NCBI GenBank assembly: GCA_016786485.1
Contig: JAEUWD010000057.1
Coordinates: 1-64,000, forward strand
Length of the DNA: 64,000 bases
Direction: 5' to 3'
Origin: Bacteriovoracaceae bacterium
GTDB lineage: Bacteria > Bdellovibrionota > Bacteriovoracia > Bacteriovoracales > Bacteriovoracaceae
In this document: positions 6,019-41,474 of the stretch, piece after piece
Layout of the letters: every line of letters starts with the position of its first letter
How positions within the stretch are numbered: the stretch's first letter is position 1
Made by a program: the position numbers and the translations under genes
The notes under the pieces: model-generated
Told to the model about the DNA's origin: nothing
What the model saw: the letters and a program-made list of their open reading frames with translations, nothing else
Database searches by the model: none

Positions 6019-6947
6019 ATTTTCCTCATATTACTTCGATTAACTCCATACGACTCGTCAGGTTCATGATTTCCTATCGGTTCTACATGAATAACGATAT
6101 CGCAAAGGTTTGGTATATTTTGAATGAGTTTATCTTCAAAGTCTTTCACAATAATATGACTTTCGTTCACTGTCATTTGTCCATCGAGCTCTATATCCAT
6201 ATAAAGAGCATAAAAGTTGGCGATTCGACGAAGACGAATTCTATGAGGATTTTTAATGGCCGTAAACTGCGTCGCTATTTGAAAAATTCTTTCATAGAGA
6301 GTGGGATCATCAATGGCATCCATAAGCTCAAGATTCACAGTGGAAAAGATTTGATACGCAGTTTTTAAAATCCAGACGGAAATTAACATGGCCAAAATGG
6401 TGTCGATGATATGTGCATTGAAATAAACGCTTGAGATAATACCGGTTAAGACGGTGAATGAGATAAAAATATCATTTTTCATGTTGAGTGCATTGGCTTG
6501 TAGGAGTGAGCTTTCATATTTTTTCGCTAAAACATTTTGATAGCGATAAAAAAGAAATTTAATAAAGATTGATAGGACCGTAACGATAACAGCGATTAAG
6601 GTTGGAGCTTCTTTGGCTTGCGGAGTAAAAATTTGCGCAAGACAGTGATACAACATTTGTGCGCCAATAATAAAAATAATAAAAGAAAGCGCCTTCGTTG
6701 CAATAGTTTCGGCGCGACGATAACCAAAAGGAAATTTGGTATTTGGTGGTGATTTTAGAATTTTACCAGTGTAAGCCGAAATCAAATAAACGACGACATC
6801 ACTGGCAGAATCAATTCCATCAGCAATTAATGAAAGACTGTTAGAAGTTAAACCAACAATAATCTTCATCGTCGCCAACACGGCATTGATAATAATTCCC
6901 ATAATAGAGACAGAATAAATTTTCTGAGCTTTTTCTAATTCAGTCAT
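6015..6947 (-). CDS. Cation diffusion facilitator (CDF) transporter
   Basis: An inner-membrane divalent metal/proton antiporter of 310 residues, the normal length for FieF/YiiP-like proteins. There are about six hydrophobic segments, starting near residue 13. '[20 protein letters not shown]' has the D-x3-D metal site of helix 2. Helix 5 has '[12 protein letters not shown]', giving the H-x3-D half of the site. A cytoplasmic C-terminal domain follows ('ADGQMTV'-like '[13 protein letters not shown]', 'VIHVEP'). It is wedged between purK and purE by overlaps at both ends (TAATG with purK, ATGA with purE), so it is translated with purine genes. The metal cannot be fixed from sequence. Confidence 0.9.
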
Positions 6948-8098
6948 TATATCTTCGCATTGGCAGATAGCTTTAACGCCAATCCTTTTAAGCTTTCTAA
7001 ATCATCGCCATAAGCCGTTATATGACCCATCTTTCTTCCAATTTTACTCTGAAGTTTTTGGTAATTATGAATTGCGATATTTTCTGGTATGGGCTCTGTA
7101 AATTTAAATAATGGAGTTCCTTCTTGTGTTCCAAGAAGATTGGTCATAACGGCAAAAGGATATTTCATATTAGTTTGTCCAAGCTTATCGCCAGTCACCG
7201 CACGAATATGATTTTCAAATTGCGAAGTTCGGCAAGCTTCGATGCTATAGTGCCCCGAATTATGTGGTCGAGGTGCCGATTCGTTCAAAAAGATTTGGTT
7301 TTTTTTATCGATAAAAAATTCGAAAGCATAAATGCCAACGCCATCAATGGCTTCGATAGCTTGAAGAGCATAGGCCATAATTTTACGTTTGGTTGTTTCA
7401 TCTTCTAATGCCGGCGAAAAGACTAAATGACAAATATGGTTTTTTTGAACTGTTTCACAAACAGGATATGTCACAAAGCCGTTGGCATTGCGTGCGACTT
7501 GAATCGCGACTTCTTTTTTAAGATCAAGGTAGGCTTCAACCATCAATTGTTTTTTTTGAGGGCCACCTAAAGCCGCTATGCCTTTTTCAATATCGGCAGA
7601 TGATTTGATCAAGAAATTACCATACCCGTCATAACCACCTTTGGCCGATTTTAAAATAAGGGGCCAGCCGTGAGTTTTTGCAAACGCTAAAATATCTTCG
7701 CTTGAATTGACGGCGGCGAAGGGCACAACTGGAATATGGGCATTTTGAAAGGTGGTTTTCTCAGTAATCTTATCTTCAATTAGTTGAAAGGTCTTTGGCG
7801 AAGGGTAAATGGCCACGCCAGACTTGGTTTGCAAGTCTTCGAGTAATTTGCCATCAATAAATTCATTTTCCAGCGTCAAAACGTCGCAGGTTTTCGCAAA
7901 TTCATTTAATTGCGTAAGATCATTAAGCTTTCCCACCACAACTTTTTCCGCTAATTCACAAGCCGGCTCGCTGCCATTGTTTTCAGCGTAAATATGGACG
8001 CGATGAGATAGTTTTTTTGCCGCTATCGCACTCATCCGCGCTAATTGGCCTGCGCCTAAGATCCCAATAGTCATCGATTTATTTTGTTTGGAAAACAT
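6947..8098 (-). CDS. purK: 5-(carboxyamino)imidazole ribonucleotide synthase
   Basis: An ATP-grasp enzyme that carboxylates AIR with bicarbonate and ATP to N5-CAIR, the substrate of PurE. It has 383 residues, typical length. 'IGILGAGQLARM' (about 11-22) is the N-terminal hallmark, 'LKSAKGGYDGYGN' the ATP-grasp loop and 'FLNESAPRPHNSGHYSIEA' the metal- and AIR-binding segment. It is first in the purK-CDF-purE operon, with its start facing purF across 138 bases. An alternative start a few residues downstream (MTIGILGAGQ) is possible. Confidence 0.96.
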   Translation of the reverse strand: MFSKQNKSMTIGILGAGQLARMSAIAAKKLSHRVHIYAENNGSEPACELAEKVVVGKLNDLTQLNEFAKTCDVLTLENEFIDGKLLEDLQTKSGVAIYPSPKTFQLIEDKITEKTTFQNAHIPVVPFAAVNSSEDILAFAKTHGWPLILKSAKGGYDGYGNFLIKSSADIEKGIAALGGPQKKQLMVEAYLDLKKEVAIQVARNANGFVTYPVCETVQKNHICHLVFSPALEDETTKRKIMAYALQAIEAIDGVGIYAFEFFIDKKNQIFLNESAPRPHNSGHYSIEACRTSQFENHIRAVTGDKLGQTNMKYPFAVMTNLLGTQEGTPLFKFTEPIPENIAIHNYQKLQSKIGRKMGHITAYGDDLESLKGLALKLSANAKI

Positions 8099-8236: not shown

Positions 8237-9718
8237 ATGTGCGGAATTATTGGGGTTATTGGCACTTCTTATGCCGCTCAGGAAGTCTATCAAGGACTCC
8301 TTTTGTTGCAACACCGTGGCCAGGATTCAGCTGGGATTTTGAGCTACGACTTCCACCGAAAAACTTATCATCAACATAAAGACCTGGGACAAGTTAGCCA
8401 AGTTTTTGATTTAAAAACTCTCGAACGACTTGAAGGGCAGATGTCACTTGGTCACACTCGTTATTCAACCGTCGGTGGTTCACAAATTAAAGATGTTCAG
8501 CCATTAGTTGTGGGATATCCCTTTGGTTTGGGTATTGTCCATAACGGAAACTTAGTTAATTTTTATCAACTACGTGAAAAATTATCGCAACAATCAAAAC
8601 GTCACATTTTTTCTAACAACGATCTTGAGGCTTTATTAAATCTAATGGCCGCAGGTTTGATTGAATCAAAAAATGAAGCGCTTTCTTTTGATGATATTAC
8701 CCATGCCGTTTCTAAAATTTATGATGCCGCTCTTGGTGGTTATTCAGTTTTAGTTTCAATTGCTGACCATGGTTTGCTGGCCTTCCGTGATCCGAATGGA
8801 ATTCGCCCGCTAGTGTGGGGAGAAAAAGAATTAAGTGAAGCTGAGAAAAAGCAAAGCGGTTCATCGAAGGCTTATTGTTTTTCTTCTGAATCCAATGCAC
8901 TTAATTTCTTAGGTTACAAACTTAATCGTGACTTAAAACCAGGTGAAGTTGTTTTCATCAGCAAAACCGGCCAAGTCTTTCAAAAAGTTCTCAATCAACA
9001 AACAACAGCAAACTGTATGTTTGAGTATATTTATTTCGCAACACCTGAATCGACCATGGAAACCAAAAACGTTTACCAAGTGCGATTACAAATGGGACAA
9101 GCACTAGCGGAACAAATTGAACCATTGATTGCATCTGGTGAAATTACACCTGATGTGATTGTGCCTGTACCTGAGACCAGTCGCGTGAGTGCTATTTCTT
9201 TGAGTGAAAAATTAGGCATACCTTATCGCGAAGTTTTAATCAAAAATCGTTACATTCAAAGAAGTTTTATTTTAAACACTCCGGAGAGTCGTAAGCGTGC
9301 GGTTCAACTCAAGCTCACACCGGTAGCGAGTGAAATCAAAGGTAAAAAAATCTTATTAGTCGATGACAGTATCGTGCGTGGAACCACTTCAAAACGTATT
9401 ATTGAAATGGTGAGAGATGCAGGAGCTAAAGAAGTTTATATCGCAACAACATGTCCACCGATTCGTCATCCTTGCTTTTACGGAATTGATTTTCCGAATC
9501 CAGAAGAGTTAGTCGCTTACAAAAAGACTGAAGAAGAGATTGCAGCAAATCAAAAAGCCGACAGAGTTGTCTACATGTCTTTGGATGGTTTGTTGAAATC
9601 GATAGGCAAAAAAGATTTATGCTTAGCTTGTATTACGGGAAAATACCCAGTGGATATTAGTGCTGGAGAATCTTTTAGTAAAAAAAGAGAAAAAGACAGA
9701 ACTGAAGAAAAATTATGA
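8237..9718 (+). CDS. purF: Amidophosphoribosyltransferase
   Basis: Makes phosphoribosylamine from PRPP and glutamine, the committed step of purine synthesis. It has 493 residues. Met is followed directly by Cys2 (MCGIIGVIG), the N-terminal nucleophile of the Ntn glutaminase domain, so no propeptide is present. 'LQHRGQDSAGI' and 'HTRYSTVG' are glutaminase motifs. The PRPP loop 'LLVDDSIVRGTTS' lies near residues 373-385. C-terminal Cys residues (LCLACITGKYP) could suit the Fe-S form of the enzyme, though this form has no propeptide. It heads the plus-strand pur operon and overlaps purC by four bases (ATGA). AAGGA lies 11 bases before the ATG. Confidence 0.97.
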   Translation: MCGIIGVIGTSYAAQEVYQGLLLLQHRGQDSAGILSYDFHRKTYHQHKDLGQVSQVFDLKTLERLEGQMSLGHTRYSTVGGSQIKDVQPLVVGYPFGLGIVHNGNLVNFYQLREKLSQQSKRHIFSNNDLEALLNLMAAGLIESKNEALSFDDITHAVSKIYDAALGGYSVLVSIADHGLLAFRDPNGIRPLVWGEKELSEAEKKQSGSSKAYCFSSESNALNFLGYKLNRDLKPGEVVFISKTGQVFQKVLNQQTTANCMFEYIYFATPESTMETKNVYQVRLQMGQALAEQIEPLIASGEITPDVIVPVPETSRVSAISLSEKLGIPYREVLIKNRYIQRSFILNTPESRKRAVQLKLTPVASEIKGKKILLVDDSIVRGTTSKRIIEMVRDAGAKEVYIATTCPPIRHPCFYGIDFPNPEELVAYKKTEEEIAANQKADRVVYMSLDGLLKSIGKKDLCLACITGKYPVDISAGESFSKKREKDRTEEKL

Positions 9719-10824
9719 GTAAATTGAATCTTATTTATTCAGGTTCGGTTAAAGATATTTACCAATCCACAGAAAATAATCATCTTTTTTTCGAGTTTTC
9801 CGATCGTTATTCCGTTTTCGATTGGGGACAAATGCCAGATTTAATCGAAGGTAAGGGAGAAGCGCTGGCCTTTATGGGTAAATTCTTTTTTGATTATTTA
9901 TCTAAGTCATCGACGTTTAAAAATATTCAAAAACCAGAAGCTTTAAGTGATACAAATTGGGAGAAAATGCTTTCGACCTCAGCGATGAAAAGACTAGAAG
10001 CGAAAGGGATGAAGTCGCATTTTATTTCCCAAGACAAAAATCGTCTTGAAGTTTTAGCGGTGCAAGTTCTGCGTCCGAGTTTTGAAATTCAAAATGATAC
10101 TAAAAAATGGAAATATGATTATACCTCAGCCACAACAGATGCCTTAGTTCCTTTGGAAGTTATTTTTCGTTTCGGTATGCCAAATGGAAGCTCACTAGTA
10201 AAACGCCTTGAAAAAAATTATCTGGACGAAATTGGCCTAGAGAAGCAACCCAAAGAAAATACTTTATTTGAAAATGTGGTGATTGAATTTTCAACCAAAC
10301 TTGAACCGGTCGATCGCTACTTAACTTATACAGAAGCCAAAAGTATTGCGGGCCTAAATGAAGCCGAATTTTCAGATTTGATAAATACCACGAAATTATT
10401 GGCAGTAGCTCTGCAAAATCTTTTTGCTCAGCTTGAAATCGATTTGTGGGATGGGAAGTTTGAATTTGCTTTTGGGAAAAGCCGTGAATTTATTCTAGTT
10501 GATTCTATCGGCATTGATGAATTAAGACTTATCAGTCGAGGCAAGCACTTATCAAAAGAATTTTTGCGTCAATATTACCGCGATTCGAGTTGGTATAAGG
10601 CCAGCGAAGAAGCTAAAAAAGCCGCGGCCAAAAATCCACGTCTTGATTGGAAACAATACTGTGTGAATGAATTAGGTGAAAAACCTCAAAAATTAGATTC
10701 TGTTCATTATCAAAAGGCCAAAGATCTTTATTGTTCACTATGTAATGAAATTGCTTTGAGTCTTGAACAAAGACCGCCATTTAAAGATGTGACGGCCTTT
10801 GATTTGTTTTTAAAAAACTTCTGA
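9715..10824 (+). CDS. purC: SAICAR synthase, long form
   Basis: Joins aspartate to CAIR with ATP. The N-terminus has the family signature ('LIYSGSVKDIYQ', then 'EFSDRYSVFDWG'), and 'LWDGKFEFAFG' with 'ILVDSIGIDELRL' matches the SAICAR-synthase signature with the metal-binding Asp. At 369 residues it is longer than the 235-300 typical of bacterial PurC; the extra length is spread through insertions and a C-terminal helical extension (about residue 290 on). It overlaps purF by four bases and is six bases from purD. Context leaves little doubt about the role. Confidence 0.93.
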   Translation: MSKLNLIYSGSVKDIYQSTENNHLFFEFSDRYSVFDWGQMPDLIEGKGEALAFMGKFFFDYLSKSSTFKNIQKPEALSDTNWEKMLSTSAMKRLEAKGMKSHFISQDKNRLEVLAVQVLRPSFEIQNDTKKWKYDYTSATTDALVPLEVIFRFGMPNGSSLVKRLEKNYLDEIGLEKQPKENTLFENVVIEFSTKLEPVDRYLTYTEAKSIAGLNEAEFSDLINTTKLLAVALQNLFAQLEIDLWDGKFEFAFGKSREFILVDSIGIDELRLISRGKHLSKEFLRQYYRDSSWYKASEEAKKAAAKNPRLDWKQYCVNELGEKPQKLDSVHYQKAKDLYCSLCNEIALSLEQRPPFKDVTAFDLFLKNF

Positions 10825-34495: not shown

Positions 34496-34541
34496 GGGGT
34501 CAGTAAATTCGTAATAAAGGTTCCTAAAATTTGCTGACCCC
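34496..34541. repeat. Inverted repeat (REP-like hairpin) overlapping the helicase start
   Basis: GGGGTCAGTAAATT (34496-34509) and AATTTGCTGACCCC (34528-34541) form a 14-base stem with one G-T wobble and an 18-base loop. The arms begin GGGGTCAG and end CTGACCCC, the same boundary seen in REP-type repeats linked to transposases in other bacteria. It also contains the TTG proposed as start of the helicase, in the right arm. Confidence 0.75.
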
Positions 34542-37221
34542 TGATTCATATCAAACAACATTTCAAGACCTCATTCAAAATATTGAATTATCAAGAAAAG
34601 GCTTTCAAGCTTCTGGTTCAGACAGCGAGGCTTTGCGTTCAACCGCAGATGCCGTTTTCGTTTTAGAAGCTTATCGTGACATTTATGAAAGTTACTTGAA
34701 GCTTACTACCGAGTTTCCTTCCATGGATGTTTTGGTAGAAAGAGATTTTGGCCATCCCAAAGAAATTTTTGAACGTGAATTTATGTTGGAAACTGCTTTT
34801 ATCGCGGATTCGATGTTTCCTATTTCAGAAAATTTTCCGATTGAACAAGACAGTGTTTTTAGCCAAGAATTGGTGAATTCCTATAAAAAAGCTTTTGCTG
34901 ATTGGTGTGTTGTAAAACGCGACTTCCATATTGAGACTCAAAAATTACTCAAAGAAAACTTTACGCTTAAGCTGGCCCAGCCGGATTTAAGCTGTCAGTG
35001 TTTTTCTTGTCTCGGTGATTTTCGTTCCAAGGTTCGTGATTCAGTCATGTCTGAGCATACGGAGCTAATGGAAAAATTAGAAGAAGAAATCTACGAGAAA
35101 ATTGTTTCGTCACGAATTAATCAAATTAGTGACCGGGTAGCAGAATATCGTAAACAAATGGATAAATCGCTGACGAATCTTCGCTATCGCTTGCGTCGTG
35201 GTTCGCTTAAAAAACTTGATCAAGAAATTCGAGATCTTTTTAAATCGAAATTTGATTTAAACTCTAAAGTGGGACAGGTCTATCGTGAAAAATTGATTTC
35301 ATTTTTCAATTCTTTATTAGTTGAGCATGGGCATAAACCCGAAATGATCACAGAAGAAGAGTATCAACGCTTCCTTGGACAAATGGGTGTTGGGATTTGG
35401 AAGGGCGAAGCTGTTCTTCGTAAAGAATTTGAAAAATTTTTAAAATCTATTTTAACTTTTAAACGTAAAGATATTTCTTCGAACATCTTAAAAGATTACC
35501 TTGGACAGTTCTGGCTTCACTCTGAAGCTCGGACCATAAATCGAAAAATTATTTATCACATGGGTCCAACCAACTCAGGGAAAACCTATCATGCTATTCA
35601 AGCGCTGTGCGAGGCGAAGTCGGGTTGTTACCTTGCGCCGCTTAGACTACTGGCCAGTGAGCTCTACGATACGATGAATGCTAAAGGTGTGAAGACGACA
35701 CTCTTGACCGGTGAAGAAGTTATTAAGGTGCCAGACGCCACTCACTTTTCTTCGACCATCGAGATGGCACGATTAAATGAAGATTTTGATTGCTGTGTTA
35801 TCGATGAAATCCAGATGATTTCTGATCCTCAGCGTGGCTGGGCCTGGACGCGTGCGCTAGTAAATATTAAAGCGCCTGAAATTCATATTTGTGGTGATCC
35901 TAGCGTTTTCAAGATGATTGAAGAATTGACGAAGTTAACTGGTGATACGCTCGAGATTAAAAATTATACTCGCATGACTGAACTCAAAATTATGGATAAA
36001 ACCATCAATCTTTCGGCTTTAAATCGTTCGGACGCGTTGATTGTTTTTTCACGTAGAAATGCGCTTAAATATAAAGCCGATTTAGAAGATCTCGATTTTA
36101 AAGTTTCAGTTGTTTATGGTCGTCTAAGTCCGGAAGTTCGACGCGAACAAGCTCGTAAGTTTGATGAAGGTGAAACCGATATCATGGTTGCGACTGATGC
36201 AATCGCGATGGGAATGAATCTTCCGATTAAAAGAATTATTTTTAGCTCACTCACTAAACACGTCGATAATAAAGAAATTGAAATTACTCCAAGTGAAATT
36301 AAGCAGATTGCTGGACGAGCGGGACGTTACAAGCGTTTCCCTGTTGGTGAAGTCACTTGTTTGAGCCGAGTTGAACATGGAATTGAAGATGTTCGAAATG
36401 CGCTGGCGATGGAGTTACAGCAAAAAACCATGGTTATGGTTGGACCTGACTTAGATATTTTCTCGCGAGTCAACAAAGCGCTAGAAGATAATGCGCTACC
36501 AGCACTTAGTCTTCCTGAATTTTTACGACTTTTTAATGCGATGACATTCATTAAGCCGTTCTACTGTGTTGATCTGAAGGAAATGATTGAACTGGCGGAA
36601 ATGGTAGAGGAAGCAGATAGCGAAGGTCATTTAACTTCTGCCGAGGTTTTTGGCTTTACATGTGCACCAGTTAATCTTGGTTTGATTGAACATGTGCAAT
36701 ACTATATTTGGATTCTAAATGGTTATGTGACTGAGAAGCCGATTGAAAATGAAGATATTGAAGTGGAGTCAGATAATATTGATTACCTTGAAACGGCCAT
36801 TAAGTGTGTCGAACTTTATCAGTGGCTGGCTCGTCACTTTGATGGAAAGAATTTTCAGTTCGAAGAAGAGCAACTTCTCCACAATAAAACCCAAGCTATC
36901 GAGCGCTTAAACGAATTACTTTCTGATAAAATTGCCCGTTATTGCTCAAGCTGTAGTGTTCAGTTGCCAGATAAGCATGAATTTAATATTTGTGAAAATT
37001 GCTTTGGCGAAAAGAAAAAAAGTTATCGTCGCGGGCCATCGGATAGAGGTGGACGTGATAACCGTGAACACCGCGGTGATCGATCGCGTAATGACCGAAA
37101 TGATCGTAATGAATCACGTTCGAGTAATAAGCCAAATAATAATCGGGGACCACGCAGTGAGAACCGTTTTGAGAAAAAAAGCAAAGGACCAAAGGCCAAT
37201 GCTTTCAAAAAATTTCGTTAA
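34531..37221 (+). CDS. SUV3-like DExH RNA helicase with zinc ribbon and basic tail
   Basis: An 896-residue helicase related to mitochondrial SUV3 (RNA turnover). Walker A 'GPTNSGKT' is at 345-352, 'DEIQMISD' (DExH) at 425-432 and 'IKQIAGRAGRYKR' (motif VI) near 590; an N-terminal helical region of about 340 residues precedes them. A C-terminal zinc ribbon (C805, C808, then CENC near 822-825) is followed by an Arg/Asn/Gly-rich tail. A Cys cluster 'CQCFSC' is near residue 153. The start is TTG at 34531, ten bases after AAAGG, because a stop lies just upstream; the next in-frame ATG is 34723. Confidence 0.85.
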   Translation: MLTPDSYQTTFQDLIQNIELSRKGFQASGSDSEALRSTADAVFVLEAYRDIYESYLKLTTEFPSMDVLVERDFGHPKEIFEREFMLETAFIADSMFPISENFPIEQDSVFSQELVNSYKKAFADWCVVKRDFHIETQKLLKENFTLKLAQPDLSCQCFSCLGDFRSKVRDSVMSEHTELMEKLEEEIYEKIVSSRINQISDRVAEYRKQMDKSLTNLRYRLRRGSLKKLDQEIRDLFKSKFDLNSKVGQVYREKLISFFNSLLVEHGHKPEMITEEEYQRFLGQMGVGIWKGEAVLRKEFEKFLKSILTFKRKDISSNILKDYLGQFWLHSEARTINRKIIYHMGPTNSGKTYHAIQALCEAKSGCYLAPLRLLASELYDTMNAKGVKTTLLTGEEVIKVPDATHFSSTIEMARLNEDFDCCVIDEIQMISDPQRGWAWTRALVNIKAPEIHICGDPSVFKMIEELTKLTGDTLEIKNYTRMTELKIMDKTINLSALNRSDALIVFSRRNALKYKADLEDLDFKVSVVYGRLSPEVRREQARKFDEGETDIMVATDAIAMGMNLPIKRIIFSSLTKHVDNKEIEITPSEIKQIAGRAGRYKRFPVGEVTCLSRVEHGIEDVRNALAMELQQKTMVMVGPDLDIFSRVNKALEDNALPALSLPEFLRLFNAMTFIKPFYCVDLKEMIELAEMVEEADSEGHLTSAEVFGFTCAPVNLGLIEHVQYYIWILNGYVTEKPIENEDIEVESDNIDYLETAIKCVELYQWLARHFDGKNFQFEEEQLLHNKTQAIERLNELLSDKIARYCSSCSVQLPDKHEFNICENCFGEKKKSYRRGPSDRGGRDNREHRGDRSRNDRNDRNESRSSNKPNNNRGPRSENRFEKKSKGPKANAFKKFR

Positions 37222-37782
37222 TTAGATAGTTTTCTGCGCCTTAAAGTAAGGGCTCGTATTTTCAACCCAGCTAACAATTTGTTCATTACCATTATAACAA
37301 TTGTTTAATTTATCCGTTTCATTTTTGGCATTAGCACAAGCTTCTCTGTCATGACTTACCATGCTTCCACATTTTTTCATGAACTCAGGAATAAGAGCAT
37401 TATACTGCAAACTCAAATTGGTAAGAGCGATTTGCATAATCTGTACTTGTTTTTGTTGATCTTTCTGTTCATCCAACATCTGTACGACTTTGCTCATATA
37501 ATTGATAGTCATGACATCAACTTTATGGTCAAAAACTGGTGCAATACTTCTGAAATCAACCAGTGATTTTTGGTCTGCTTCTTTTTTACTAAATTCAGAT
37601 AGAGATTTATCTAAACGGTTTAAGCCACGGATGTATTGATTTTGTTCTTCAACGTCGAGTAATTTCTTCGACACCATGTCGAAAGCAATTTGTGAACATA
37701 CCAATGGAATCTGGGTCGGTTCAGCCGCTTTTCCGATGCTAAAAGTAAGAACGATCAATGTGAGCAAAATAAGTATTTTCAT
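37222..37782 (-). CDS. Hypothetical secreted protein, 186 aa
   Basis: Not recognised. The start is the ATG at 37782, with GGAG seven bases before and a signal peptide MKILILLTLIVLTFSIGKA; the frame continues upstream to 38019 but this would overlap the DUF455 gene and remove the signal peptide. Mature residues are helical and charged, with a few Cys (including CGSM, EACAN and NNCYNG) near the C-terminus. It may be a coiled-coil periplasmic protein. It is divergent from the DUF455 gene. Confidence 0.6.
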   Translation of the reverse strand: MKILILLTLIVLTFSIGKAAEPTQIPLVCSQIAFDMVSKKLLDVEEQNQYIRGLNRLDKSLSEFSKKEADQKSLVDFRSIAPVFDHKVDVMTINYMSKVVQMLDEQKDQQKQVQIMQIALTNLSLQYNALIPEFMKKCGSMVSHDREACANAKNETDKLNNCYNGNEQIVSWVENTSPYFKAQKTI

Positions 37783-37998: not shown

Positions 37999-38835
37999 AT
38001 GCAGTCTTGGGCGAAACAATTGCTCTTGGGTGGGGATTTAAGCGATAAGCTACAGGCCCCCTATGAGATGGATTTCGAGCAGAAAAGCGAACTGCTGACT
38101 CTACCTCAAGCTCCAGGTCGTATTGATAAGTATAAGTTTGTGACAAAATCACGGGATAAATTTCCAAAGCCTCAGCACCTGCATCAAGACAGCGCTAAAG
38201 GCAAAGCCTTACACGCTTTTGCTAATCACGAATTGCTTGCCATTGAGATGATGGCAGCGACTCTACTTATGTTTCCTCATGAGAATGACGAACATAAGAA
38301 GATTAAGAAAGGTATTATCCAAGCGATTCAAGATGAACAGAAACATTTAAGCCTTTATATCGCGAGAATGAATGAACTCGGTTTTGAATTCGGTGATTTT
38401 CACTTAAATGATTTCTTTTGGCGCCAGATGGGTTCGATTCAAAACATTCATCAATATTTAGCGGTGATGTCGTTAACTTTCGAAGCGGCCAATTTAGATT
38501 TTTCTTATTTTTACGCCCAACTATTTAAAGAAATTGGTGATGAAAAAACGGCGGCGATTATGCAAACCGTTTACGAAGATGAGATTTCTCATGTGGCCCT
38601 CGGTAGTCATTTTCTTGGTCGCTGGAAAGGCGATAAAAAACTTTGGGATTATTATCAAGAAATACTACCGTGGCCCATAACTCCAGCTCGCGCTAAGGGT
38701 TTAGTTTTTCATGCTGATAGTCGTTTGCAAGCTGGTCTCGACGCTGATTTTGTGGATAATCTCAAAAATTATCGAGGCGATTTTCAAGTGACGAAAAGAA
38801 AACAGTGGGAAGTTGATGCAAGCTTATCGAGTTAA
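37999..38835 (+). CDS. DUF455 ferritin-like protein
   Basis: A 278-residue helical protein of the DUF455 ferritin-like group, related to MiaE-type di-iron enzymes. The candidate metal ligands are spaced as in di-iron four-helix bundles: Glu83 in 'NHELLAIE', Glu113 and His116 in 'DEQKH', Glu162 in 'FEAANLD', and Glu195/His198 in 'YEDEISH'. Such proteins can be oxygenases or oxidases; the substrate is unknown. The ATG has GAGG eight bases before. It overlaps the ATP-grasp gene by 20 bases. Confidence 0.82.
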   Translation: MQSWAKQLLLGGDLSDKLQAPYEMDFEQKSELLTLPQAPGRIDKYKFVTKSRDKFPKPQHLHQDSAKGKALHAFANHELLAIEMMAATLLMFPHENDEHKKIKKGIIQAIQDEQKHLSLYIARMNELGFEFGDFHLNDFFWRQMGSIQNIHQYLAVMSLTFEAANLDFSYFYAQLFKEIGDEKTAAIMQTVYEDEISHVALGSHFLGRWKGDKKLWDYYQEILPWPITPARAKGLVFHADSRLQAGLDADFVDNLKNYRGDFQVTKRKQWEVDASLSS

Positions 38836-39751
38836 TATCGATTACGAATATTTTCTTTTTGATCCGCACTATCAGGCCAGCACGGCCAAATATCAGAAAA
38901 TGATTGAAGAGTGGGAATATATCTATTGGTACTGCGATAATTCTGGAACTTTATTAACTCAGAAAAATTACCCGACCATCGAATTAAAAAAAATCGAAAA
39001 AATTATTAACGCCGAAGTGAAGCTGACTAAGCAGACGGACAAGGTGATTAATTGGTTTGGCGATACCACCAATAAAGAACTGATGCAGAAGTGCAACTCG
39101 CGGGTTTATAGCACGCAGTGGGCACTGAATGAAAACCTGCTCGACACTAATCAAACCAAAATTCTGCCAACGCTGCCAGAGGAATTGCCTGCGGGATATC
39201 TCATGAAAGAAGAAGGAGGATTTTCTGGCATGGGAATTCACCAGAGCTTAAAAAAATGTCGGCCACCGGTGATTGTGGAACCTTACTATGAACGAACGGG
39301 AGATTTTTCAGTTCTTTTCATTGAAGGTAAGCCGCATTTTTATCAAAATAAAATTGATAATAAATTTCAGTATAAAGGTAGTGTGGTTAAAAACGCTCAG
39401 GCTTGGGAATTAAGAGACTTAGATTTATCCGATGAGCATAAGTCGATTGCTAGTGAAGTCTCACAAAAAATTTTTAAACATTATCATCAGATGAGTCCAC
39501 AAGCAGTTTGGGGTTATGATTTTTTTACTTATGAGCAAAATGGAAAAAGTAAAATTTATCCAGTGAACGAAGTGAATTTTCGTAAGACGCTGGGATACTT
39601 TTTTATAAAACTTTGTACCCATTTAGGTAAGAGTGCTGAAGGTGCCCAATTAGTTTTCGAGACAGCTCACATTCCCAAAAATTTCTCAGGGGAGATAGTG
39701 TCAGTTTCACCGAAGGCCAATAAATTTCAATTATCACTGCTTTTGACTTGA
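38816..39751 (+). CDS. ATP-grasp-like ligase of unknown substrate
   Basis: A 311-residue protein with ATP-grasp features: 'YLMKEEGGFSGMGI' as the nucleotide loop, 'VIVEPYYERTGDFSVLFIEG' (split motif) for the next strands, and 'KIYPVNEVNFRKT' with the metal-binding Glu and Asn. The start is the ATG at 38816 (GGGAAG before it); a TTG at 38813 is also in frame. No known ligase is matched. It starts inside the DUF455 gene, so the ferritin-like oxidase and this ligase are made together, like a two-step modification enzyme pair. Confidence 0.72.
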   Translation: MQAYRVNIDYEYFLFDPHYQASTAKYQKMIEEWEYIYWYCDNSGTLLTQKNYPTIELKKIEKIINAEVKLTKQTDKVINWFGDTTNKELMQKCNSRVYSTQWALNENLLDTNQTKILPTLPEELPAGYLMKEEGGFSGMGIHQSLKKCRPPVIVEPYYERTGDFSVLFIEGKPHFYQNKIDNKFQYKGSVVKNAQAWELRDLDLSDEHKSIASEVSQKIFKHYHQMSPQAVWGYDFFTYEQNGKSKIYPVNEVNFRKTLGYFFIKLCTHLGKSAEGAQLVFETAHIPKNFSGEIVSVSPKANKFQLSLLLT

Positions 39752-40350
39752 TGTTTTTTGTTCAATTCGAGCACGAATTTCCCCAATACGTTCTCATCGT
39801 CGCCTAAAATAAAAACACTATCCGGTAACTCATGCACTAAAACAATATTATTGGTTTGGTCTTTGGTTTCACTTTCAACTTCTTTTAAAAAATCATTGGC
39901 ACGTTTTTGTTCTAACTTAACGACGGGGTAGTCTTTGTTTTTAAAAAGAGTTTTTCGTATTTGGGGTTGATGAATATGAAAAATAAATTTGATATTCTCC
40001 AAAGCTTGGTAGATAGCGTAATGAACAAAGACATGTTCTGGAGGGGCGACCGAACCCTCGACTAGTATTTTCATTTTTTTTACATCGACTTCGGTGATTT
40101 TGGTATAGTGCTCACGTTTTAAATTCGGTAGTCCGCCAGTTTGTTCACCAGTAATAATAAAATGTTCACTATCGGTCACGTCACGACGAGAGAGTTCACC
40201 ATAGCTGAGTTTATCAATCGGGGATTCGCCTAGTAATTTTATTTTATGAAATAAAACCCGCCACTTTTCGAGTGAATGAATAATATGATTCTCAGGGCCT
40301 GAAGTTTTTTTTATTTGATAATTAAATTTTGGAGGTTCTTTATGTTTCAT
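39727..40350 (-). CDS. Class II aldolase/adducin-family protein
   Basis: A 207-residue protein with the class II aldolase fold: 'YGELSRRD' at the GNLS-like position, 'FIITGEQTGG' at the phosphate loop, 'PEHVFVHYAIYQA' and 'IFHIHQPQ' giving the zinc-binding His residues. Members cleave or epimerise sugar phosphates, or make methylthioribulose phosphate dehydratase (MtnB). Substitutions in the G-N-L-S and P-S-S-E motifs weaken any precise claim. The 3' end overlaps the ATP-grasp gene by 25 bases. Confidence 0.78.
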   Translation of the reverse strand: MKHKEPPKFNYQIKKTSGPENHIIHSLEKWRVLFHKIKLLGESPIDKLSYGELSRRDVTDSEHFIITGEQTGGLPNLKREHYTKITEVDVKKMKILVEGSVAPPEHVFVHYAIYQALENIKFIFHIHQPQIRKTLFKNKDYPVVKLEQKRANDFLKEVESETKDQTNNIVLVHELPDSVFILGDDENVLGKFVLELNKKHQVKSSDN

Positions 40351-40403: not shown

Positions 40404-41474
40404 ATGAACGATTTAATTGCGGATATTGAAAAAAAGGTCAAAGAATTTTTAAAGCAGGTTCCTTTCCTGAATAACCTGGTTTTTGGCAAAAATACCGAAG
40501 CAGATTCGTCAGAAGATCAAGCTGGCAATGAAGGTGCTGGCGATAAAACTTCTGTTTCTAGGGTCAATGTTCTTGCCAATGCTCAAGAAGAAGCGGGCCC
40601 TGACGGAGAAAAACCAAAATTCAAGTTAAAGCGTGTGCATATTATTGCATTAGGGATTATTGCTTATTTACTAGTCGATGATCAGTTATTAAATTTTAAT
40701 CCACCACCAACTGATCCGGCCCAAGCTAAAAAGATTGAAGAGCAAAATTTGGCGAAAATTAAAGCGGCGATTGATAAAATACCTGAAGCAAAACCTATTG
40801 TGCAAGCTCCAGCTCCTGTGGAAAAAGTGGAAGTGGCACCACCAGCAGTAGTAGAAACTCCGGTAGCAGAACCGGAGCAAGCTCCTGTGGTGGAAGAAAC
40901 AGCGCCGGTCGAAGAAGTGGCGATTGAAACACCAGGAAATTTTACCGAACCAGAAATCGTAGGAACTGAAACGATTGAAATTTCAGAAACGCTTCCGACT
41001 GAAACAGAAACAATTGAAACACCGACAGAACCTGTAATAAGTGCTGATGTAACTGAACCAACAATGGAAACGGAAACACCAGTAGCTGAAGAAGTTGTAA
41101 GCACAGAAGAGCTCGGTCAAAGCGAAGGAAGTGTGAGTGATGTGACACCTCCGCAAAACGTAACCGAAGATATTTTAGAAGATCTTGAAAACCAGTTTAG
41201 CCAGAAAACCCAAGATCGTAATGAGAAACTCTTCTACAGTATTCCTCGTTATGAATTCATAGGTCGTGGTTTGGTTTATAGTTGCACTGGTAAGCACTGG
41301 GCCTGTGTGAACGCAGAAAACTACGGTAAATGTGAAAAGAATTACAACTTTTTAAAGAATATTGATCGCTCCAAAGAGTGCTATCCAGCTGAAGTCTATG
41401 CGACAAATGAAGATTGCTCTACTGCTCAACAAAGCAAAGTCGATTCTACGCCCAAGTATGAATTTTGCCAGTAA
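40404..41474 (+). CDS. Inner-membrane protein with Pro/Glu spacer and Cys-rich domain
   Basis: Not recognised, 356 residues. The N-terminal 75 residues are charged; 'HIIALGIIAYLLVDDQL' (about 76-92) is the single membrane helix. About 160 residues rich in Pro, Glu, Val and Thr follow, like the TonB spacer that spans the periplasm. The last 75 residues contain six Cys (SC, AC, KC, EC, DC, FC), an even number fit for three disulfides. No ribosome binding site is seen, but stops just upstream force this ATG. It ends four bases from the convergent HD-GYP gene. Confidence 0.65.
   Translation: MNDLIADIEKKVKEFLKQVPFLNNLVFGKNTEADSSEDQAGNEGAGDKTSVSRVNVLANAQEEAGPDGEKPKFKLKRVHIIALGIIAYLLVDDQLLNFNPPPTDPAQAKKIEEQNLAKIKAAIDKIPEAKPIVQAPAPVEKVEVAPPAVVETPVAEPEQAPVVEETAPVEEVAIETPGNFTEPEIVGTETIEISETLPTETETIETPTEPVISADVTEPTMETETPVAEEVVSTEELGQSEGSVSDVTPPQNVTEDILEDLENQFSQKTQDRNEKLFYSIPRYEFIGRGLVYSCTGKHWACVNAENYGKCEKNYNFLKNIDRSKECYPAEVYATNEDCSTAQQSKVDSTPKYEFCQ

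Follow-up and report, generated by a model that had tools for sequence, protein, structure and literature searches.

ATP-grasp enzymes use ATP to activate a carboxylate, which is then passed to a nucleophile. The placement of di-iron HDO oxidases beside ATP-grasp amino-acid ligases is a known biosynthetic theme, mangotoxin being one example (PMC13185094), and haem-oxygenase-fold di-iron oxygenases with ATP-grasp ligases were predicted earlier (PMC2922099). Ligases of the PGM1 type take ribosomally made peptides as substrate (PMC8939145). Here, we describe a locus in which a ferritin-like protein of the DUF455 family is coupled to an ATP-grasp ligase. It lies in a stretch of 64,000 nucleotides from a Bacteriovoracaceae bacterium (contig JAEUWD010000057.1, positions 1 to 64,000; hereafter, the window). 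Its split genes almost certainly encode one two-step enzyme, because the two parts form one fused protein in many other bacteria. The features of the region are the following:

34531-37221: SUV3-type RNA helicase (PF22527, E 4e-64)
37222-37782, minus strand: predicted secreted helical protein, with a signal-peptide-like MKILILLTLIVLTFSIGKA that begins at 37782
37999-38835, plus strand: DUF455 gene, 278 aa (PF04305, E 1.3e-48, 166.2 bits against a gathering cut-off of 34.3); ferritin-like di-iron protein of the ligase-linked DUF455 subfamily, with FANHELLAIE and FExANLDF motifs and ligands E78, E113, H116, E162, E195 and H198
38816 (ATG) or 38813 (TTG) to 39751, plus strand: ATP-grasp ligase ORF, 311 aa from the ATG or 312 aa from the TTG
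38816-38835, plus strand: overlap of both reading frames, 20 bases with the ATG start; relatives from other families and phyla are fused here
39727-40350, minus strand: class II aldolase, convergent (PF00596, E 1.8e-5)
40404-41474: 356-aa protein without a Pfam match; its middle is rich in Pro, Glu and Val, and its C-terminal part is conserved

In the window sequence, a GAGG Shine-Dalgarno-like stretch precedes the ATG of the DUF455 gene, and the ligase is read in a different frame. The initial annotation, made from the sequence, had described a DUF455 gene overlapping the next gene by 20 bases; the overlap is exact with the ATG start at 38816, and the family assignment holds over the gathering cut-off. 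In the fusions, the chain continues through an N-x-x-x-E motif (N7 and E11), the same motif that opens the split ligase.

The association of the two genes extends well beyond the window. The ligase was present in 26 of 59 relatives, with DUF455 directly upstream in nearly all, while across 369 genomes of the phylum the ligase model matched in 132 (E ≤ 1e-3) and DUF455 in 246, nine of the 132 ligase matches being weak, short and to ORFs of about 420-440 aa that resemble PurD-type ATP-grasps. Matches to ORFs of this size in families f6, f11 and f22 were set aside as PurD-like by their size and matched range. Within the window's own family, the ligase is carried by 100 of the 100 genomes with a strong DUF455 match (E ≤ 1e-27), as tallied by hand from the ligase and DUF455 genome listings, and the only ligase-bearing genome there that is without a strong DUF455 has its ligase fused to a carbamoyltransferase. 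DUF455 lies directly upstream of the ligase in 53 of 55 family loci; of the other two, one has the genes about 1.2 kb apart and one is at a contig edge. In locus L182 (genome G003) both genes are kept, at 6712-7830 and 9004-9999, with another gene between them, and the ligase there is one of the most diverged.

In further families of the phylum, a single ORF carries the DUF455 and ligase domains. When the fusion alignment was used to scan 84,980 named genomes, at least 548 relatives were returned, and 79 of the best 80 among these are single-ORF fusions, a figure that reflects the breadth of the fusion and not its rate, since the scan ranks full-length matches first. The phyla represented in these best 80 are Verrucomicrobiota, Gemmatimonadota, Latescibacterota, Planctomycetota, Myxococcota and Bdellovibrionota. 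Outside the window's family the distribution is patchy, the fusion-type unit being found in 3 of 145 Verrucomicrobiota genomes. The neighbourhood survey suggested in the initial annotation therefore finds the ligase-linked DUF455 adjacent or fused to an ATP-grasp in essentially every case sampled; the concern that the two might rarely be neighbours elsewhere does not apply to this subfamily, whereas DUF455 proteins of a second, solo subfamily have no such linkage.

A different partner was seen in genome G035 (contig C10, loci L077 and L178), where an 879-aa ORF (L178:8335-10974, minus strand) fuses the ligase domain to a carbamoyltransferase (PF16861, PF02543) and not to DUF455; it adjoins a glycosyltransferase gene. 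The ligase can work without DUF455, as the G035 ligase is fused to a carbamoyltransferase instead, and this suggests that the domain also serves small-molecule tailoring.

In the DUF455 tree, whose bootstrap did not fully reach convergence, the ligase-linked and solo copies form separate clades (support 100/100). The linked copies carry FANHELLAIE and FExANLDF, and the solo copies LxxIELQAMEL and EGSGLDAGD. We rejected the idea that all DUF455 proteins are ligase-linked, as families f6, f11, f16, f17 and f19 carry solo copies. These solo proteins (PF04305) of other families in the phylum belong to the same fold family and keep the same six di-iron ligands; they differ in their separate clade, in having no adjoining ligase and in three residues that lie beside the iron ligands, within about one turn. 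H77, Y120 and N165 are found in 37 of 37 linked and 0 of 20 solo DUF455 proteins, the 20 solo proteins compared having Ile, Cys (19 of 20) and Gly at these positions. Such a contrast would fit a difference in substrate between the two subfamilies. The split pairs nest in a fusion-bearing clade (24 rows including two fusions, support 97/89), and the fusions never form one group in any bootstrap tree. Because the split genes nest among fusions, those of the window are most likely a secondary split (gene fission) of an ancestral fusion.

A third, divergent DUF455-like group of about 415-490 aa, with weak DUF455 matches, was also observed (L179:2221-3468, L180:2692-4125 and L181:2509-3984). No ligase domain was found in these three proteins, and some genomes carry the group in addition to the fusion. 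Separately, fusions were present in metagenome-assembled records that bear the title Klebsiella pneumoniae or Akkermansia muciniphila (L140, L103, L105, L112 and L124). The title of L140 is probably wrong, because its protein groups with Verrucomicrobiota in the tree, and those of L103, L105, L112 and L124 may be wrong too.

The six di-iron ligands of the DUF455 protein are invariant in 57 sequences drawn from solo copies, split pairs and fusions, and make up the full ferritin-like set E / ExxH / E / ExxH. E113, H116, E162 and H198, the four ligands first listed for this protein, are all correct, and the list was incomplete, since E78 and E195 (and E83) are likewise invariant. O2 activation is common among ferritin-like di-iron proteins whose ligands follow this pattern. 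The AlphaFold model (pLDDT 92, pTM 0.89) is a four-helix ferritin-like bundle, with helices at 64-91, 97-126, 150-178 and 182-209. Its top Foldseek matches are aldehyde-deformylating oxygenases, weak at E 7.6e-3 and 13% identity, and the further top structures are DPS, bacterioferritin and rubrerythrin. As in other ferritin-like di-iron oxygenases, the likeness consists of the four-helix bundle with its E / ExxH / E / ExxH ligands; the similarity is weak, and nothing points to the same reaction. The placement of DUF455 in a ferritin-like/MiaE group thus stands for the ferritin-like part, through the model and the ligands, and the MiaE link found no specific support: PF04305 is the sole Pfam match over cut-off, and MiaE is absent from the top fold matches, which by itself does not count against such kinship.

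No Pfam or NCBIfam family matched the ligase ORF, and a direct single-sequence PDB search was empty. Its AlphaFold model (pLDDT 93, pTM 0.90) has the ATP-grasp fold, so that a reading first guessed from the loops is now confirmed by predicted structure and fold comparison. The closest structures are PGM1 (Z 22.2 over 283 residues), 8ynd (20.4), BesA (20.1) and SAOUHSC_02373 (19.3), with housekeeping ATP-grasps reaching Z 15.8 at most (PurK, biotin carboxylase), and a PDB search with a profile of 42 cross-phylum ligase domains placed the peptide ligase 8ynd first (E 5.4e-5). PGM1 (3wvr/3wvq), BesA (8yi6), the Streptomyces peptide ligase (8ynd) and SAOUHSC_02373 (7r8q, which we take to be LdmS) resemble the ligase over nearly the whole chain (Z 19-22, 275-285 residues aligned) and share its pre-ATP-grasp domain and K/K/D/ExN/R set. 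They differ in sequence, with 9-14% identity and no family model over cut-off, and the window ligase is about 80-150 residues shorter and DUF455-linked.

Among the 42 ligase members, the LdmS model (NF047900) matched five, with a best E of 3.5e-5 and, for one member, 16.3 bits against a cut-off of 475, and the PF18604 PreAtp-grasp model matched eight (best E 0.0026); both stay below cut-off, and neither matched the window ligase. An identity as housekeeping D-Ala ligase, RimK, PurK or PurD was rejected, as the window ligase is without any family-model match up to E 10; in its relatives, housekeeping ATP-grasp models match sporadically and below threshold. The initial annotation had named a housekeeping enzyme such as a D-Ala or ribosomal-S6-type ligase as the outcome that would undo its proposal; no such model passes its cut-off, and by structure the protein lies closest to ligases of amino acids and peptides. 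Viral contigs contained no relative of this ligase. Scattered members of the 42-sequence set match DUF3182 (best 3e-9), which has been assigned to the ATP-grasp superfamily, near carbamoyl phosphate synthases and BtrJ (PMC4431377).

The catalytic set R/K96, K131, D235, E252-x-N254 and R256 is invariant or nearly so in the 42 sequences, from several phyla (K96 in 38/42, with Arg in the window; K131 in 40/42; D235 in 42/42; E252 in 41/42; N254 in 42/42). By the features that define the ATP-grasp superfamily, namely the fold, two lysines, an Asp and the ExN motif (PMC4431377), the window ligase belongs to it. Many amide-forming members are marked by an Arg in the first strand of the kinase-like domain (PMC4431377). 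At ligase position 165, judged equivalent by its D-x-R pattern in the sequence and not by superposition, Ser is found in 32 of 42 and Gly in 10 of 42; on this alignment, the ligase lacks the conserved Arg of the amide-bond-forming clade. The R2K clade (CDC123), defined by the absence of the linker Lys and of the ssxGbGl-type loop, was rejected, as linker K/R96 and an FSGMGI loop are both present.

Around the pair, gene order is shared within the family, with the aldolase nearby in 31, the 356-aa gene downstream in 43 and the SUV3-type helicase upstream in 41 of 55 loci. The aldolase noted at first beside the pair is present, as family-level synteny only, without conservation near fusions elsewhere. 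The divergent secreted helical protein is real and not part of the unit: only the window, and possibly its nearest relative, L003, was seen to have it in the interval that separates the helicase gene from the DUF455 gene. Its true start is probably not the listed TTG at 38019 but 37782, where the signal-peptide-like segment begins. None of these three proteins (aldolase, 356-aa protein, secreted protein) is conserved around fusions, and we therefore do not count them as parts of the unit. The surroundings of 79 fusions show no conserved biosynthetic gene cluster, transporter or further tailoring enzyme; the commonest neighbouring family occurs in 10 of 79 loci, and no ribosomal precursor peptide is conserved within 800 bases. 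The small ORFs that recur near fusions are confined to small groups of related loci, and several of these also have a large neighbouring gene in common at an equivalent position. Since no other neighbour or precursor peptide is conserved, the unit appears self-contained.

What could such an enzyme do? We lean, by a narrow measure, towards a di-iron oxidase and an amide ligase that work one after the other on a single substrate resembling an amino acid or peptide. The DUF455 domain would be a di-iron oxidase, its site catalytic and not storage-like, that uses O2 for the hydroxylation, desaturation or cleavage of a small substrate. In the ATP-grasp domain, a carboxylate would be converted with ATP into an activated acyl phosphate and then joined to an amine to give an amide. 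Together, the two domains could oxidise and ligate an amino acid, a peptide or a comparable common metabolite as a self-contained unit, no further gene in the vicinity being dedicated to the process. As the pair is fused without other partners, sequential or coupled use of one substrate is to be expected; both domains would then work on the same molecule. A two-step oxidation and ligation of a small molecule or peptide had been the initial proposal, and the coupling and both folds obtained here, with the conserved metal ligands and ATP-grasp catalytic residues, support it, while the chemistry is what we infer from them. Several findings weigh against this reading: no cluster is conserved around the fusions, unlike the HDO/ATP-grasp clusters; storage ferritins are among the fold matches, and a ferritin fold does not prove oxygenase chemistry; and the amide-clade Arg is replaced by Ser or Gly, with the G035 ligase fused to a carbamoyltransferase.

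The lack of a conserved neighbour or small precursor ORF is also what one would expect for a substrate made everywhere, and the unit might instead modify a macromolecule, the ligase attaching an amino acid to a protein or tRNA and the di-iron domain hydroxylating it, in analogy to EF-P lysylation and hydroxylation, RimK on S6 or MiaE on tRNA. PGM1-type ligases accept ribosomally made peptides (PMC8939145), and in 41 of the 55 loci from the family the pair follows the gene for the SUV3-type RNA helicase. However, an RNA-level link through this helicase was rejected, as it is family-level synteny and not recurrent near fusions; no RNA-binding domain was found, and the patchy presence (3/145 Verrucomicrobiota genomes) would be unusual for modification of a core factor. 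We consider a macromolecular target unlikely, though a serious contender. DUF455 could also be an iron- or O2-handling partner that shields or regulates the ligase, through storage, protection against peroxide or sensing. DPS and bacterioferritin score level with the oxygenases in the fold comparison, the Z of about 14 is close to the tool's noise level for helical bundles, and the predicted fold by itself cannot tell an oxygenase from a storage-type relative. Against this, the best Foldseek matches, the aldehyde-deformylating oxygenases, align over about 187 residues, more than storage ferritins, and the linked clade has its own invariant H77, Y120 and N165 near the iron ligands, as expected for a substrate pocket, which leaves an iron-handling role rather improbable. 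Finally, the helicase, the aldolase and the 356-aa gene are also often in place within the family, and the two genes could be neighbours by descent only, through conserved chromosomal gene order. Single-chain fusions in several families and phyla without shared neighbours, together with the one-to-one co-occurrence within the family, effectively refute this explanation, to which we give next to no weight.

In the literature searched, which covered few subscription papers, we found no function for DUF455 and no description of the DUF455-ATP-grasp pair or fusion. The idea of an oxidase plus a ligase is known; the pairing of DUF455 with an ATP-grasp as a fused stand-alone enzyme across phyla appears undescribed. 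In our judgement, the chances are about even that it is an undescribed self-contained oxidase-ligase, fused in at least six bacterial phyla and with no surrounding cluster, which makes either a widespread oxidised metabolite of the amide or dipeptide kind or a modification on a macromolecule. The fusion and the clade split supply a partner and a reaction type for one half of DUF455, H77, Y120 and N165 stand out as candidate pocket residues, and the single-chain fusions allow direct expression and assay. Mangotoxin MboA/MboC/MboD and similar clusters likewise pair a non-haem di-iron oxidase with an ATP-grasp amino-acid ligase; their oxidases have the haem-oxygenase fold and belong to multi-gene clusters, whereas here a ferritin-fold DUF455 is fused to, or overlaps with, its ligase and no cluster is conserved. 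If our reading is right, the oxidation-plus-ligation chemistry of antibiotic clusters would also exist as a stand-alone enzyme in many little-studied phyla.
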